Positions 13,676 through 19,896 of a stretch of DNA of 39,947 nucleotides are shown one piece after another. Location of the stretch: contig CAIFEQ010000019.1 in the NCBI GenBank assembly GCA_903789495.1, positions 1-39,947 of the forward strand, written 5' to 3'. Origin of the DNA: an uncultured Erysipelotrichaceae bacterium (GTDB lineage Bacteria; Bacillota_I; Bacilli_A; Erysipelotrichales; Erysipelotrichaceae). Every line of letters starts with the position of its first letter. Positions within the stretch are counted from its first letter, which is position 1. The notes under the pieces were generated by a model that made no database searches, was not told the origin of the DNA, and saw only the letters and a program-made list of their open reading frames with translations. The position numbers and the translations under genes were made by a program.

Positions 13676-13702
13676 ATAGTTCCCCTTTGATAGCCTTTCT
13701 GG

Positions 13703-14860
13703 TTACTTGATTCTTTCCGGAATGCCAGGACGATCCGGATACTTCTTTTCGACTTCCCGGACAACCGGGTCATCCAGAGCGCACAGCCAGCCGTTGTCAT
13801 AGACCAGCGTATCGCCGACCGTCAGCGTGGCATGCTGGATGTCAGCGGTGATGTGCTGATAGTACGGGAATTTCTCATTGGCACCGGCAGAGCCTAAGTG
13901 GACATGCAGGTTATGATAGCTGGAATGATTGATGATTCTTCTGTAGAGCGGGCTCGGGCACTCATATTCCGAGATCTCCGCATTCGGATGAACGCCGAAG
14001 TGGAAGGTATCAAACTTCCAGATGCCGTCGCCGACCAGCGGTTCCAGTTTCTGGAGGTAGCGCTTGATCTTCACAGCCTCTTCGCCGCCCGTGATGTCCA
14101 CGATGCGGCTGTCCTTGACGTCGACCCGGACCAGATCCTTCCACTGAGGTTCAATCCCGATGTAGCGGGACCACCAGCTCAGCATCCGGTCAAAGTAATA
14201 GACGCCGTTGACTTCCGTGCAGTTGACCGGCGGATGAACCCATTCCGGCCAGAAGGTCACATGTCTCACCTGCTTGCGGTAGGAATCGTAAGGCAGGCCC
14301 GGAATCCCCGGACGTTTCTGCGGATCCATCGTATAGCCTTCCAGATGCGTGCCGTTGGGATCGGTCAGGACAAACTTGGACATGTGCTTCATGAACGGTG
14401 CTGCCGCCTGATGCCGGATGGTCGTCACCAGTTCTGAAGGAGTCTGGGCCCACTTGCTCATCAGCAGCGGTGCCGTGGTCGGGAAGACACGCACCATCCA
14501 GGTTTTGGCATCCTCGAAATGCCGGCGGAAGTTGCCCAGCTCGGTGGTCGTGATTTCAAACGACGTGCACAGCACCAGATCCGCTTCCTGCACCACACCC
14601 TTGAAGATCGGCGGATAACGCCAGTGTCCTTCCGGCTGCGGATCATCAATCCACAGAATCGAGCAGTGCGCGCCGCGGGACTGCACGACCGTCGCCATCC
14701 AGGATACAGCCTCTTCGTCGACCAGGTTCGGGCCGTCGTAGAGACCGTCTTTGTGCGCAACAACGACAACTTCCATGCCCGGCTTGACTTCTGCAACATT
14801 GTCAACCAGGTCGATCAGAGAGGTCATTGCTGCCTGGGGAATACCCACTTGAATCGCCAT
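13703..14860 (-). CDS. M29 aminopeptidase / NicX-like metalloenzyme
   Basis: 385 residues. The N-terminal domain has the VAEVKPGMEVVVVAHKDG and ADLVLCTSFEITTTELGNFR pattern seen in the leucyl-aminopeptidase M29 group, which also contains 2,5-dihydroxypyridine dioxygenase (NicX). The C-terminal region holds conserved His/Asp/Glu candidates for metal binding: DTFHFGVHPNAEISEYE and NLHVHLGSAG. I cannot decide between a peptidase, a ring-cleaving dioxygenase or another hydrolase. Its pairing with an organic-anion permease argues for breakdown of an imported small molecule. ATG at 14860 has GAGGTG 8 bases upstream. Confidence 0.6.
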   Translation of the reverse strand: MAIQVGIPQAAMTSLIDLVDNVAEVKPGMEVVVVAHKDGLYDGPNLVDEEAVSWMATVVQSRGAHCSILWIDDPQPEGHWRYPPIFKGVVQEADLVLCTSFEITTTELGNFRRHFEDAKTWMVRVFPTTAPLLMSKWAQTPSELVTTIRHQAAAPFMKHMSKFVLTDPNGTHLEGYTMDPQKRPGIPGLPYDSYRKQVRHVTFWPEWVHPPVNCTEVNGVYYFDRMLSWWSRYIGIEPQWKDLVRVDVKDSRIVDITGGEEAVKIKRYLQKLEPLVGDGIWKFDTFHFGVHPNAEISEYECPSPLYRRIINHSSYHNLHVHLGSAGANEKFPYYQHITADIQHATLTVGDTLVYDNGWLCALDDPVVREVEKKYPDRPGIPERIK

Positions 14861-14931
14861 AACTCTTTCACCTCATTTATTCATACGCACAGCATTTCCG
14901 GATTCATGCTGTTTCATATGCCGCTCCAAAT

Positions 14932-14945
14932 TTGATTAAGATCAA
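14932..14945 (-). promoter_or_regulatory. FNR/CRP-family operator, perfect consensus palindrome
   Basis: TTGATTAAGATCAA matches the FNR-box consensus TTGATNNNNATCAA at all ten fixed positions. It lies 72-85 bases upstream of the M29-like gene start. Regulation of the enzyme/permease operon by a Crp/Fnr-family protein is inferred; no such regulator is encoded in this window. Confidence 0.6.
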
Positions 14946-15364
14946 TGTAAGCCGTTTCTACAGAAACCGTAGCATACCGGTTATGTGAAAAAAATAATGG
15001 AAATCCTATTAAACATTTAATAAAATCTAACTTCCTCCGGAAGCCCTGTCCGAAGCGCCTTTTCCGGCCGCCGGAACAGGTCTCGGCAGTCAGAATCGAT
15101 TGTCACTTTTCCCCTTTCCGGCCGTCCTCCTGACCGTCTGACGGCCATCCTGTTGGTTGAAATTTCGGCATCAGCTTTTTCTCTTACTGCGGTCAATCCA
15201 TATATCCGAGTATCCACATATTATGATACGGATACAAAAGAAAAGACCAGGAGGAAGTCCAGTCAGAAGAACATATCTGCCAATGCCTGTGCCGGCGCCA
15301 CACTGCTGTTTCCTCTGCCGGCCCAGGAAACTGTTCTGAACAGGATTGTCTGAACAGATCATCG

Positions 15365-15386
15365 AAAACCGCTGCAGCGGTTTTTT
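15365..15386 (+). terminator. Orphan palindromic terminator
   Basis: A 20-base perfect palindrome with arms AAAACCGCTG and CAGCGGTTTT (15365-15384) ends in a T-run on the plus strand; its A-rich left arm also allows minus-strand function. No gene ends nearby on either strand, so it may close an unannotated short transcript in the 14946-15364 interval. Confidence 0.6.
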
Positions 15387-15589
15387 ATGCTGCAGCACTA
15401 TTTCTCAAACTGTGTCCCGAAAGTCAGGTTTTCTGGCTGCCGGCTTTCCGAAGTAAATCTGGTGCCAATGCCAGCCTGTAATTTTCTGCCGCGCAGGGCA
15501 TATCGGAGAATAAATGCCGTCTTTTCAGCAAACTGGCATATCGCACAATGATACGGTTTTATGAGTAATACAGCACTCGATCAGAGCCA

Positions 15590-17251
15590 TTAAAGGGAGG
15601 ACTTTCCCATGACAGCGATGTCACGGATTGCCTGGAGCGCCTGATCCAATTCAGCGTATGTGTTGTAAAAAGCAGGGCTGATGCGCACAGATGCACTTTG
15701 ATGGAAATGGCGATGCAGAGGAATAGCGCAGTGATGACCGGAGCGGACAGCAATTTTTTTCAGATTCAATACAGCAGAAATATCAGCAGCGGACATTCCT
15801 TCAATGGTAAAAGAGATGCATCCGGCATACTGCCGCGGCGATCCCAGGATTGCAGTGCCAGGTATTTCTGCCAATCCTCTGCGAAGATATGCAAGCATGG
15901 CATTTTCCCGTTTTTCTATCCATTCATGGCCGATCCGGCTGGAATAACGGAAAGCAGCCTCCAGGGCGATCGCACCGGCAAGATTCGGTGTTCCTGCTTC
16001 CCAGCCGGCAGGGGCAGCATAATAAAGCGGTTCATCAGCCTGAAATGCTTCGATTGTTCCGCCGCCTACAACCGGCGAAGATAATTCAGCAAGCACATCT
16101 TTGCGCATATAAAGAATTCCAATGCCGCTGCCGGACATGACTTTATGGCCTGAGAACGCATAACAGTCACAGCAAAGACTCTGCAGACTGCCGTGGGTAT
16201 GGCGGATGCCCTGGGCTCCATCAACCACAGTAAAAATTCCTGCCTCATGAGCTTTTCTGCAGATCGCTTCAACCGGTGTCAATGCTCCTGTTACGTTAGA
16301 ACATTGTGTAAAGGCAAGCAGAACCGTCGGCGGCCTCAGCAGGGCATCCAGAACATCCAGATCCAGATCTCCCTGTGCATTCACGGGTACCACTGCCAGG
16401 CTGGCGCCGGTTCTCTGGCAGAGTTCCAGCCATGGCAGATAATTGGAATGGTGCTCCATTTCCGTTGTGACAATTCGGTCGCCGCGATGAATTCTCGGCT
16501 GGAAGGCATAGGCGGCTGTATTAAGACCAGCAGTGGCACCGGCGGTAAAAATCAGCTCCTCTGGCGAAATGCCAAGCTGACCAGCCAGATACGTTCTGGC
16601 TGACTCATAGCCGCGGGTCGCTTTGTCCGCTCTTTGATAGATGCCGCGATGAACGTTGGCATAGCTGTCGGTATAGAATTGCGCTACAGCCTGCAGAACC
16701 TCAGCAGGAACCATCATGGTTGCCGCATTATCAAGATAAACAGGCATCTCCGGATCCCTGCTGAAACATGGAAAATCATTTCGGATCAATCGGACTTCAG
16801 CTTCATCCTGATCAGAGGGGGTCTGGGCCGGCAGAGCAGATGCCGGCAGCAGCCGCATCAGTTCTGCCGCCAGATCCGGCAGCGTACGCAGATAAGGAAT
16901 CCGTTCGGGGTCAAAGTGTACGTCAAAAGCCTTCTGCAGCGTAAAGAGCAGCTGCACCTTTTTATATAACGGCGTCGTTGAGGAACCGCAGCCGGTAATC
17001 ATTCCAGCCGCTTCCAGATCCCCGCCGCTGAGCTGATAGACGAACTGGATGCTGAGTTCTGCCAGCCGATCAATATCATTTTCGGCAGGGTCGGCCGTTT
17101 CAAAGATAGAGAATCGATGCAGAACATATGCACGCAGCGCTTTCTCCAGTTCCTGTGCGTTTTTCTCCTGCCAGGCAGTTTTAGCGATCTGCAGAGATCT
17201 CAGGGCAGCGGCAGTTTCCCTGCGTAAATATGCCTCTGCATCGGGACTCAT
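15590..17251 (-). CDS. Type II cysteine desulfurase (SufS/CsdA-like) with an N-terminal acyl-carrier-like domain
   Basis: 553 residues, about 140 longer than a normal SufS. From about residue 170 the class V PLP fold is complete: DNAATMMVP, EMEHHSN (His267/268), VVDGAQ (Asp344 and Gln for PLP), SGHK with the Schiff-base Lys370, and RSGHHCAIPL with catalytic Cys508, the group II form. The first 140 residues are helical; residues 95-135 (KKVQLLFTLQKAFDVHFDP...LRTLPDLAAEL) read like helices 2-4 of an acyl-carrier protein, but the DSL serine position is occupied by Leu. A GCGSS near residue 87-91 faintly recalls SufE's active site. ATG at 17251 has a perfect GGAGGTGAT site and overlaps the preceding gene by 4 bases (ATGA). 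It probably releases sulfur or selenium from Cys-like substrates; the partner is unknown. Confidence 0.8.
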   Translation of the reverse strand: MSPDAEAYLRRETAAALRSLQIAKTAWQEKNAQELEKALRAYVLHRFSIFETADPAENDIDRLAELSIQFVYQLSGGDLEAAGMITGCGSSTTPLYKKVQLLFTLQKAFDVHFDPERIPYLRTLPDLAAELMRLLPASALPAQTPSDQDEAEVRLIRNDFPCFSRDPEMPVYLDNAATMMVPAEVLQAVAQFYTDSYANVHRGIYQRADKATRGYESARTYLAGQLGISPEELIFTAGATAGLNTAAYAFQPRIHRGDRIVTTEMEHHSNYLPWLELCQRTGASLAVVPVNAQGDLDLDVLDALLRPPTVLLAFTQCSNVTGALTPVEAICRKAHEAGIFTVVDGAQGIRHTHGSLQSLCCDCYAFSGHKVMSGSGIGILYMRKDVLAELSSPVVGGGTIEAFQADEPLYYAAPAGWEAGTPNLAGAIALEAAFRYSSRIGHEWIEKRENAMLAYLRRGLAEIPGTAILGSPRQYAGCISFTIEGMSAADISAVLNLKKIAVRSGHHCAIPLHRHFHQSASVRISPAFYNTYAELDQALQAIRDIAVMGKSSL

Positions 17252-18798
17252 GCCGTAATCACCTCCAGGCCAATCATTCTGCCCAGCTGGACAATCTGTT
17301 CAAAACAGTCTCCATAAGCCAGGGGTATATGATTGCCGAACTGGATCTGCTTATCAAAGAAATCCTTGCCGTCCTTTACTTTGATGAAAACACCCAGTGT
17401 GCAGCTTGGCGCACCATAACCGCGGCCGCCGCAGATGGTCCCTTTTGCCACAAAGATCTTTCTGCAGGAAGGATCAATACGGCACAGCGTGACTGTCGTG
17501 CCGGCATCCTGGTTGAAATCATAGCGGAGCGTGGCACCAAAGCCGCTGCTTGTAAAGGGACGGATTGCATAATGCGCGAGCGGACTGTCAAAACCTCTGA
17601 AGTTGCGCTTGGGAACAGAGTGGTAACAGAAAATGGTGTTATCCGGATCATCGGCAAGAATTTTCCGTTTGCTTTCCATTTCCGTATCCAGCCCCAGCGG
17701 CCCGCTGGATTTCAGCTGCCCGGTAAGATGCCAGAGATGCGGATTCTGATTGGTATTGCCCATATAAGCAGGTGCCTGCAGAAAACCGGATAAGATCGCC
17801 ATGGCAACAACGGCAGACAGATCATATTCACAGGCAGAAGGAATGCCCATTTCACCCAGCAGGGAATGATTCAGGCAGAACGTAAAGCGCTCATTATTCA
17901 GCCGTCTGGTCGCACAGAGGTCAGGACAGGGGGCGGCAAACGCATTGCAGCCATAATAATCAAGAAGCCTGTAAATGGTTAAATGAGCACGAACTGACTG
18001 GAATACATCCTCGCGGGTCATATCGCATTCATCCGCACCGGCAATAAGTTCATCGGTCAGCCTGTTCATCGCTTCCACTTCCTCCGGGCCTGGATTAAGA
18101 CCGCGGCGGCCGGGAATGGTTGGATTTGTTTCCGTTTCGCCGATATGCGTCTGATCGATCAGTTCATGCGGATTGACAAAACGGAACTGAGTCCCCAGTA
18201 CACGGGTTACGGTTTCCAGGTCAATGAAATTATCCATGCAGCTGATGGTGCGGGCAGTGCCGTAACGAGGCGCGCAGAGGATTCTGAGTCTGCTCAGGAT
18301 TTTGCGCACACGCAGCACTTCCAGCATCTGCAGCGTATCATCCCAGTCCCGAAAAGCGTAGAACTCATAGCCTCTGGACAGCAGGGCTGCAGAAGTAATG
18401 GTGTGCGTAGCCCGTGTGGAAGGAAGAGACATCATGGGTTTGGTGGTCCTTTCAGCCAGCGCAAGCGCCAGATCGGACATGCGGGAAAGTTCGCCGAGCA
18501 GAAACAGATCCACATCTTCGCTGTCCTTCAGCATGGTCTCAATCATTTCCTCACTGACCAGGAACTCCTCGTTGCGGTCAATGCGGATCGGTTCCTTCAG
18601 CTGTACCTTATCGCCCAGGCGGCGGATGGTTTCTTCACTCTGCCGGATATATTTTTCGGCGTTGACCATATTGTCATATTCGCTTGTCAGCTGTTCCGGA
18701 GTACCGAAGCGGCAGGGTCCTTCGAAAACATAGTCATGATGCATGGTCATGTAAATCGGCTGAACAACAAGCTTCACGTCCCGGATGTTCTGAATCAT
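17248..18798 (-). CDS. L-fucose-isomerase-like protein (COG2407-like fold)
   Basis: 516 residues. The arrangement resembles the L-fucose/L-arabinose isomerase superfamily: two Rossmann-like N-terminal domains, then CEYDLSAVVAMAIL (Glu324 and Asp326), a region with a GN motif, and a C-terminal beta-rich part (SPLAHYAIRPF, then FGNHIPLAYGD near the end). The positions match metal-binding Glu/Asp/His of the family only approximately, so isomerase activity is uncertain. Cysteines are notable (CNAFAAPCPDLC, near 284-295). The start at 18798 is set by GGAGG 8 bases upstream; the 13-residue upstream extension is rejected. It is the first gene of a two-gene operon with the desulfurase and is divergent from a LysR gene. 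Confidence 0.55.
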   Translation of the reverse strand: MIQNIRDVKLVVQPIYMTMHHDYVFEGPCRFGTPEQLTSEYDNMVNAEKYIRQSEETIRRLGDKVQLKEPIRIDRNEEFLVSEEMIETMLKDSEDVDLFLLGELSRMSDLALALAERTTKPMMSLPSTRATHTITSAALLSRGYEFYAFRDWDDTLQMLEVLRVRKILSRLRILCAPRYGTARTISCMDNFIDLETVTRVLGTQFRFVNPHELIDQTHIGETETNPTIPGRRGLNPGPEEVEAMNRLTDELIAGADECDMTREDVFQSVRAHLTIYRLLDYYGCNAFAAPCPDLCATRRLNNERFTFCLNHSLLGEMGIPSACEYDLSAVVAMAILSGFLQAPAYMGNTNQNPHLWHLTGQLKSSGPLGLDTEMESKRKILADDPDNTIFCYHSVPKRNFRGFDSPLAHYAIRPFTSSGFGATLRYDFNQDAGTTVTLCRIDPSCRKIFVAKGTICGGRGYGAPSCTLGVFIKVKDGKDFFDKQIQFGNHIPLAYGDCFEQIVQLGRMIGLEVITA

Positions 18799-18963
18799 GA
18801 TTAATTCCTCCTTCTGAATGATCTGAAAATGAAGCATGGAACTCTGTTTTCAGTCTGCCATGCCGGAAAATAATTGAAAAACAGAAGTTTTGCGGTACTG
18901 CTACAGAATTTATGTTGGCGCGGAAGGCAAAGCAGACTATCTTGTTGATGAGAGGTTTTATCT

Positions 18964-19896
18964 ATGAATTTCAATAATCTGCAATATTTTCTTGTCACAG
19001 CGGAAGAGAAAAACATTACCAGGGCAGCCCGCCGGCTCCATGTTTCCCAGCAGTCGCTCAGCAGTCAGATCAGGCGCCTGGAAAAAGAGCTAGGCACAGC
19101 ATTGTTTGTCCGCGACAAGGAATTGATCCTGACGCCAGCCGGCGAATGCCTGCAGCAGGAAGCACGCATCATCCTTGCTGATTATCAGCGGCTGCTGAAG
19201 GAAATTGATGCCCTGAAGGGATACCGGCAGGAACAGCTGCGCATCGGGGTTTCTTATGCACATGCGTCAGCCATCATCAATCAGCTGCTGAAGAAGTTCC
19301 AGGCTGAACATCCGTTTGTTGAAATGAATGTGACAACAAGTTCCTCAAGTGCTCTGGAACAGGCTTTGGACAAAGATCAGCTGGATCTGATTTTTCTGCT
19401 GCTGCCGTCCTCCCTAAATGATGTAGAAATTACCGTTATCAGCAGAGAACCGATGTGGATTGCCGTACCGGAACCGATTCTGGCGAAACACTTCGGTTCA
19501 GCCTGGCAGAAGAAAAAAGAAGAGCTTTCAAAAGGCGTAAAGCTTGCTGTTTTCAAGGGCGAAGCCTTCATCCTGCATGGCCGGCAGGAACGTCAGAAAA
19601 TCGTCAGGGAATATCTGCTGCAGTGCTTTGAAAAAGCGCCTGACGTCATCCAGACCTATAATCGACAGACAGCGTTGCAGATCAGTGCCCAGGGAAAAGG
19701 AATTGCTTTTCTGCCCTTTGGCCAGGTTCCAGAGAGGGACAGCCAAAAGGGAAATCTTTCCTTTTTCCCATTAAAGGATGAAGCACTGCAGGATCGCTTT
19801 GCTTTGCTCTATAAGCGCGGAGCCGCTATGAGTCCAGCCGCACAGGCACTGGTTTCAGAAGTGCAGAAAACCGCTTTTCAGAATAATAAAAAATGA
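18964..19896 (+). CDS. LysR-family transcriptional regulator
   Basis: 310 residues. The N-terminal helix-turn-helix is canonical (MNFNNLQYFLVTAEEKNITRAARRL, VSQQSLSSQIRRLEKELGTALFVRD), followed by an effector-binding domain from about residue 88. GAGAGG lies 8 bases before ATG 18964. It is divergent from the isomerase-like/desulfurase operon with a 165-base intergenic region, so it probably controls that operon and itself. The effector is unknown; a sulfur-containing or sugar-linked metabolite would fit the neighbours. Confidence 0.9.
   Translation: MNFNNLQYFLVTAEEKNITRAARRLHVSQQSLSSQIRRLEKELGTALFVRDKELILTPAGECLQQEARIILADYQRLLKEIDALKGYRQEQLRIGVSYAHASAIINQLLKKFQAEHPFVEMNVTTSSSSALEQALDKDQLDLIFLLLPSSLNDVEITVISREPMWIAVPEPILAKHFGSAWQKKKEELSKGVKLAVFKGEAFILHGRQERQKIVREYLLQCFEKAPDVIQTYNRQTALQISAQGKGIAFLPFGQVPERDSQKGNLSFFPLKDEALQDRFALLYKRGAAMSPAAQALVSEVQKTAFQNNKK

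Follow-up and report, generated by a model that had tools for sequence, protein, structure and literature searches.

The well-known sulfur relays end in iron-sulfur (Fe-S) clusters, thiolated tRNA, thiamin, molybdopterin, lipoate or biotin, or a few antibiotics; among their small carriers, ThiS and MoaD have a ubiquitin fold with a C-terminal Gly-Gly, and TusA has a fold of its own. Most of these end points are listed in the abstract of PMC8300815. We examined a 39,947-nucleotide stretch of DNA from an uncultured Erysipelotrichaceae bacterium (contig CAIFEQ010000019.1 of assembly GCA_903789495.1; the whole stretch is referred to as the window), in which a gene for a fucose-isomerase-like protein (ISO) and a gene for a cysteine desulfurase with a carrier-like N-terminal domain share an ATGA stop/start overlap at positions 17248..17251 of the minus strand, as an earlier sequence-only reading had reported. 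Comparison with relatives suggested, at roughly even chances in our judgment, that these two genes are a compact form of a dedicated sulfur relay to a FucI/AraA-fold protein with a sugar-type use. The sequence-only reading had recognized the pair and the carrier domain, both of which stood; it had missed the stand-alone form of the carrier (SMALL), its invariant cysteine and the SufE protein that accompanies it in relatives.

A search of a species-level genome collection with a single isomerase sequence gave no match. A three-row query, composed of the window ISO and two distant relatives, gave 37 loci, most of them in Eggerthellaceae or other Coriobacteriia (including Ellagibacter, Gordonibacter, Raoultibacter and Adlercreutzia) and the remainder in some Lachnospiraceae and Oscillospiraceae and in Eubacterium ramulus. 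No ISO relative was detected by tblastn among phage and plasmid records. Hidden Markov models (HMMs) were used to call four parts at these loci: ISO, the FucI-like protein; SMALL, a helical protein of ∼140 residues; SUFE, a SufE protein; and DES, a SufS-like desulfurase. The main branch comprised 32 loci, 28 of which had usable flanks; L049, L051, L058 and L059 were left out of the count because the contig ends inside ISO, and no SMALL, SUFE or DES was found on the sequence present there. SMALL was detected at 27 of the 28 loci (exception, L042), SUFE at 26 (exceptions, L038 and L044) and DES at 26 (exceptions, L039 and L044). The one SUFE protein tested, that of L036, was a SufE by Pfam (PF02657; E = 2.2e-34), and CQS was invariant across 26 aligned SufE proteins of the cassette. 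Three different fusions were present, namely SMALL-DES in the window, DES-SUFE in L046 and SMALL-SUFE in L040, and overlaps of the ISO and SMALL genes, as in the window, were also seen in L036, L038 and L046. These results indicated a conserved ISO-SMALL-SufE-desulfurase cassette, so that conservation of the pair extends far beyond the window genome. As far as we found the cassette is apparently undescribed, with no description in the available portions of the open-access papers searched. A second branch (L018 and L052 to L056) encoded shorter ISO proteins, with a desulfurase at 5/6 loci and neither SMALL nor SUFE found at any of the six. Phosphotransferase system (PTS) parts were identified at L054 by Pfam (EIIC-GAT, IIB and EIIA) and in the other second-branch loci by reading; L056 was identical to L017 over the 300 bases compared.

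The association between ISO and SMALL was also evident in whole genomes. SMALL was present in 16 of the 19 genomes behind the loci in which it was sought, in up to six copies, and at ten further SMALL loci an ISO gene was found in every case (10/10), with SUFE at 4 (five open reading frames [ORFs]) and DES at 3. In a set of 95 genomes of Eggerthellaceae, the family of Ellagibacter, passing a 90% completeness filter, ISO was detected in 18 and SMALL in 18, and these were the same 18. Every one of the 32 SMALL matches lay ≤1.8 kb from an ISO match, and the 2 of 35 ISO matches without SMALL on the contig were fragments on contig C8 of G748. Copy numbers of ISO and SMALL rose together, with six and six in a Raoultibacter genome and two versus three in G652. 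This test is not independent: the genomes are relatives of one another, and at least 8 of the 18 positive ones contributed rows to the alignments used as queries. Of 392 Bacillota genomes drawn evenly, one had ISO and one had SMALL, in both cases the window genome. In the window's own family a full-length ISO was present in 3 of 272 genomes, a Solobacterium included, two of these being second branch, and a search of 315 genomes of the order with the N-terminal region alone matched the window genome only. The rarity of ISO in its own family would suit an ordinary FucI homologue lying by chance beside a second SufS, an explanation that we regard as almost certainly wrong given the linkage and the co-occurrence: for independent genomes, identical sets of 18/95 would arise about 1 time in 1e19 by chance, although the genomes compared here are not independent. 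DES and SUFE were missing beside several Raoultibacter SMALL-ISO pairs in a genome that has both elsewhere, and a shared sulfur supply with dedicated carriers would fit this arrangement.

The N-terminus of the window desulfurase was identified by the HMM of stand-alone SMALL proteins as a SMALL domain fused on (residues 13-136; 16844..17215, minus strand), and by blastp it matched the stand-alone protein in L038 at 3.7e-15. An AlphaFold2 model of residues 1-150 was helical, with a mean predicted local distance difference test score (pLDDT) of 84.2, so the region is not predicted to be disordered. The second half of this region had been likened to an acyl carrier protein (ACP) lacking its serine, and this likeness held up: hhalign of SMALL against eight ACPs from cassette-bearing genomes gave a probability of 61% (E = 8e-5), compared with ≤0.5% for 20 column shuffles, 0.1% for the reversed alignment and 0.1% for SufE. 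In a profile search of solved structures, the top 26 among the 34 matches listed were named acyl carrier proteins (best E, 0.0059). Pfam gave no convincing family for 27 SMALL members, and NCBIfam gave none for two stand-alone members and the window protein; the window region fell below PF00550, with no match, and SMALL matched that family at E ≤ 1 in 4 of 27 (best, 0.015). The similarity of the second half of SMALL to ACP, judged from profiles and models, is thus likely and not decisive. A SufE domain was ruled out for the N-terminal region by the lack of a Pfam match and the hhalign value of 0.1%.

The residue that all SMALL proteins share is a cysteine. Cys88 (codon at 16988..16990, minus strand, in the window) was invariant in 44/44 covered sequences and is followed nine residues later by an invariant lysine; the copy in L104 (L104:5970-6239), a truncated or frame-shifted gene next to an intact ISO gene, was not covered. 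The column of the ACP serine (93) held Ser in 41 of the 44, which would be expected if SMALL were a phosphopantetheine carrier in relatives and degenerate in the window. We consider that explanation very improbable, since the DSL phosphopantetheine motif is absent from SMALL, the column holds Thr93 in the window, Asp in L035 and Ala in L095, the invariant residue is Cys88 rather than Ser93, and no SMALL occurred among 31 PP-binding matches in 12 genomes. From this pattern of conservation we infer that the working group of SMALL would be Cys88 and not phosphopantetheine.

The fusion gene (15590..17251, minus strand) encodes a protein of 553 residues in which SMALL is joined to a SufS-like desulfurase. 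Its class V domain (residues 171-537; 15641..16741, minus strand; PF00266, E = 3.4e-112) scored 375.5 bits against the 21.5 needed for the class and retains both catalytic residues named by the sequence-only reading. The pyridoxal phosphate lysine Lys370 of SGHK (codon at 16142..16144, minus strand) was K in 34/34 aligned locus desulfurases, and the active-site Cys508 of HHC (15728..15730, minus strand) was C in 32/34, L028 and L038 being cut by contig ends. The score for SufS subfamily TIGR01979 was below the curated cut-off (400.8 versus 475.1), as was that of the SufS in the genome's own Suf operon (420.7). PADLOC matched the desulfurase domain alone, to SspA/DndA. A scan of nine window proteins detected neither a SufBCD nor an IscU family, in agreement with the sequence-only reading. 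A separate SufC-D-S-U-B operon was present elsewhere in the genome at L060 (two SUFBD_core, one NifU_N and one ABC protein), and the second SufS of the genome sits inside it; a class V enzyme lies beside ThiI at L061. In the desulfurase tree this Suf-operon SufS fell outside the node that holds the cassette enzymes. The window desulfurase is therefore separate from housekeeping Fe-S assembly, as had been proposed. Matches in Acinetobacter baumannii and Azospirillum extended into the N-terminal region, and those desulfurase genes adjoin encapsulin shell genes (annotated in Azospirillum, read in A. baumannii). An N-terminus of the encapsulin-cargo type was rejected as unrelated in kind, the N-termini of those two proteins being Pro/Ser-rich. 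The A. baumannii record (L020; NZ_CP104448) is filed as a plasmid though 4.1 Mb long, which suggests a chromosome.

Neither SufE nor SelD gave a match in the window genome, the assembly of which is 94.8% complete. SelD bears on the earlier suggestion that selenium might be carried instead of sulfur. In G650 a selD gene (C3:111774-112715) lies ∼140 bases from the cassette desulfurase (C3:112856-114052), as selenium transfer would lead one to expect, and in the other eight SelD-positive genomes selD was on another contig or far from that desulfurase. Of 16 cassette genomes, only 9 had a SelD above the curated cut-off, and selenium is not required because the remaining 7, the window genome included, had none above it; we regard selenium as the cargo as highly improbable. 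G650, an Ellagibacter genome, also encodes an 831-residue protein (L134:6316-8811) with a class V/SufS-like domain (170-548) and a methyltransferase domain (630-773). A radical-SAM protein (L134 5297-6349) stands beside it, and the two may represent another unusual sulfur system.

ISO (likely 17248..18798, minus strand) was modeled with a pLDDT of 86.9 and a predicted template modeling score of 0.90, and all 41 Foldseek matches at E ≤ 0.001 were arabinose or fucose isomerases (best E, 6.2e-18). The protein is thus predicted to have the FucI/AraA isomerase fold. Fold comparison alone found these relatives: the ISO profile had no match to Protein Data Bank sequences, hhalign of ISO with individual AraA or FucI sequences gave no significant result, and the window ISO had no Pfam match at E ≤ 0.1. 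Fucose_iso_C (PF02952) was matched weakly by 17 of 31 ISO proteins at E ≤ 1 (best, 4.1e-5) and not by that of the window. Seven cysteines (42, 297, 304, 308, 321, 336 and 479) as well as Asp339 and Asn361 were invariant in 54 ISO proteins, with Glu337 in 46/54 and H406 in 53/54. By motif and by a non-significant alignment, Glu337 and His503 line up with AraA/FucI metal ligands, which would thus be partly kept, and the position of the second acidic ligand, also mapped by motif, holds Gly360 or Asn361.

As a control, these residues were compared with six ordinary FucI-like proteins from the family of the window genome. E337, D339 and H503 were present in 6/6 and N361 in 5/6; C42, which lies in a Gly-Pro-Cys-Arg (GPCR) motif, C308 and H406 were present in 0/6 and on this account mark the cassette ISO proteins. 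The C479 column is less certain because a two-sequence alignment placed Arg there in L013 and the six-sequence alignment placed Cys. The control loci showed no SMALL, SUFE or DES, but at ∼3 kb each they provide weak evidence on this point. The contrast between C42 and C308 in 54/54 cassette ISO proteins (H406 in 53/54) and their absence from ordinary relatives could mean that the relay matures ISO itself, placing a persulfide or a metal-sulfur centre on its cysteines, with the sugar product free of sulfur. The tendency of each ISO to have its own SMALL, with desulfurase and SufE missing beside several pairs, would agree with such a role. However, FucI-like proteins in general share four of the seven cysteines, and no cluster-binding motif was recognized, so we judge maturation of ISO rather unlikely, though to be taken seriously. 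An Fe-S site built from the seven invariant cysteines had been considered and was dropped because of those four.

Sulfoquinovose isomerase was the sole NCBIfam family matched by 3/3 ISO relatives tested (best E, 9.6e-12, in L055). This match, together with uptake or degradation genes next to some relatives (PTS EIIC/EIIB/EIIA, MFS_2, rhamnosidase and GH28), raises a catabolic flow in which a sulfur-containing sugar would be opened by ISO and its sulfur removed by the carrier, SufE and the pyridoxal phosphate enzyme. Against this flow, both catalytic residues of SufS, Lys and Cys, are retained in the desulfurase, which fits release of sulfur from cysteine, and SftI (NF048012) was matched at 15 bits by the window ISO and at 44 bits by the best relative, versus a cut-off of 700; it appears improbable.

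In relatives, the genes around the cassette suggest a place in the metabolism of carbohydrates or plant compounds. An MFS_2 transporter lies near the cassette in L035, and a PfkB kinase and a xylose-isomerase-like protein lie near it in L104. In L102 (Clostridiales, COT-073) an ISO-SufE-desulfurase-SMALL order is placed between an alpha-L-rhamnosidase and a GH28 enzyme (2-2389 and 13679-16546); by reading, an apparent ABC sugar transporter is also there. Creatininase-family proteins were found near PTS-type ISO loci (L053:14397-15125 and L054:6768-8336, the latter fused to a haloacid dehalogenase [HAD] phosphatase). Molybdopterin-oxidoreductase-like ORFs were read near Eggerthellaceae ISO-SMALL pairs in L095, L096, L097, L098, L099 and L101. 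The one tested, in L098, was confirmed as a molybdopterin oxidoreductase with a pyrogallol-hydroxytransferase-like domain. Because relatives adjoin sugar transporters, PTS genes and pectin-type glycosidases, there is a weak indication that a sugar- or polyol-like substrate is the most likely.

For the dedicated relay, the best-supported order would be cysteine, Cys508 of DES, SufE where present, Cys88 of SMALL and then ISO, the arrows being drawn from the fusions, gene order, matched copy number and conserved cysteines. By analogy with SufS chemistry, the desulfurase domain would take sulfur from cysteine onto Cys508 and pass it to Cys88 of the fused ACP-like domain; direct transfer of this kind fits the window because the carrier is fused and no SufE was found in the genome. 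Elsewhere, where desulfurase and carrier are separate proteins, SufE probably stands between them, to judge from the fusions and gene order. The carrier may then dock on its cognate ISO and hand over the sulfur, perhaps via Cys42 or Cys308, with either a sugar-type substrate or ISO itself as the end point.

Several observations weigh against this relay. The locus counts are not independent, because several loci form near-identical pairs (L025/L026, L027/L028, L030/L031 and L041/L057). SMALL is not needed by every ISO, because the distant branch stands beside PTS genes with neither SMALL nor SufE. Foldseek of SMALL gave no match at E ≤ 0.001, and the top ranks were designed helical proteins with poor superposition; ACPs appeared at ranks 5, 23 and 30, with template modeling scores (target length) of 0.68, 0.59 and 0.77 and E values of 0.55, 1.4 and 1.7. 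In the desulfurase tree, the node that joins the window enzyme to the cassette (28 cassette sequences, the window's among them, and one further sequence; two of the 28 rows, L037 and L095, are the same gene) was weakly supported at 0.556, and the next node out (0.942) held 29 cassette and two non-cassette enzymes, 31 in total. Finally, C304, C321, C336 and C479 of ISO were found in 6/6 of the ordinary FucI-like relatives, and C297 was found in 1/6.

The start of ISO is probably at 18798 rather than at 18837, where the ORF of 529 residues begins, because an AGGAGG site (AGAAGGAGGAATTAATCATG) precedes the alternative start and residues 1-12 also had a pLDDT of <50 in the model. Upstream lies a divergent LysR-family regulator (18964..19896, plus strand; 310 residues; LysR by Pfam). 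The sequence-only reading had placed it with the pair in a self-contained unit. Its divergent orientation was evident, but the gene is not conserved with the cassette in other genomes: a single regulator cluster is represented at 21 of the 28 main-branch loci (three members tested were PucR-type), and matches to the window LysR among the compared loci were limited to L042 (two) and L023 (one), with a LysR-like ORF also present in L097, which was read separately. Downstream of the pair, a 385-residue ORF at 13703-14860 had no match in Pfam or NCBIfam.

The cassette resembles the SufS/SufE and CsdA/CsdE relays in having a SufS-like enzyme with catalytic Lys and Cys and, in most cases, SufE. It differs in that no SufBCD was found in the unit and in two added members, a cysteine-bearing protein that is ACP-like and a partner with the FucI fold; the window differs further in that its genome gave no SufE match and in having carrier and desulfurase on one polypeptide. 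The likeness to ThiS/MoaD and TusA, if our reading is right, is that a small carrier would serve as a dedicated link from a desulfurase to one specific enzyme, whereas SMALL would have an ACP-like helical fold and an internal cysteine. Compared with ACP (PF00550), which the C-terminal half resembles, SMALL has no DSL serine, an invariant cysteine five residues before the serine column and ∼60 extra N-terminal residues. ISO shares the fold of L-arabinose and L-fucose isomerases, with Glu337 and His503 lining up by motif, but has Gly360/Asn361 in place of the second acidic ligand, the motif with Cys42 and ∼10% identity. SftI is a distant member of the same FucI-like group, set apart from ISO by the gap between 15 and 700 bits. 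The cargo desulfurase of family 2A encapsulins (NF041166) likewise has a SufS-like domain and a long N-terminus, but the window protein scored 386 versus 800 bits, the NF041166-type N-terminus was Pro/Ser-rich in the two proteins read, and no encapsulin family was found among the window proteins scanned. Tentatively, and as a possibility to which we give less than even weight, an ACP fold may have been reused as a persulfide carrier, loaded by a SufS-like enzyme, with SufE or without it, and matched nearly one to one with FucI/AraA-fold enzymes that use sulfur in the sugar or plant-compound metabolism of gut anaerobes; in some Eggerthellaceae the paralogues have multiplied, to six pairs in one genome, which suggests that several substrates are served. 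A relay ending at a sugar-isomerase fold via an ACP-like cysteine carrier would, if true, add both a new carrier type and a new acceptor family to the known systems, and the window fusion offers a convenient one-polypeptide version for direct tests.

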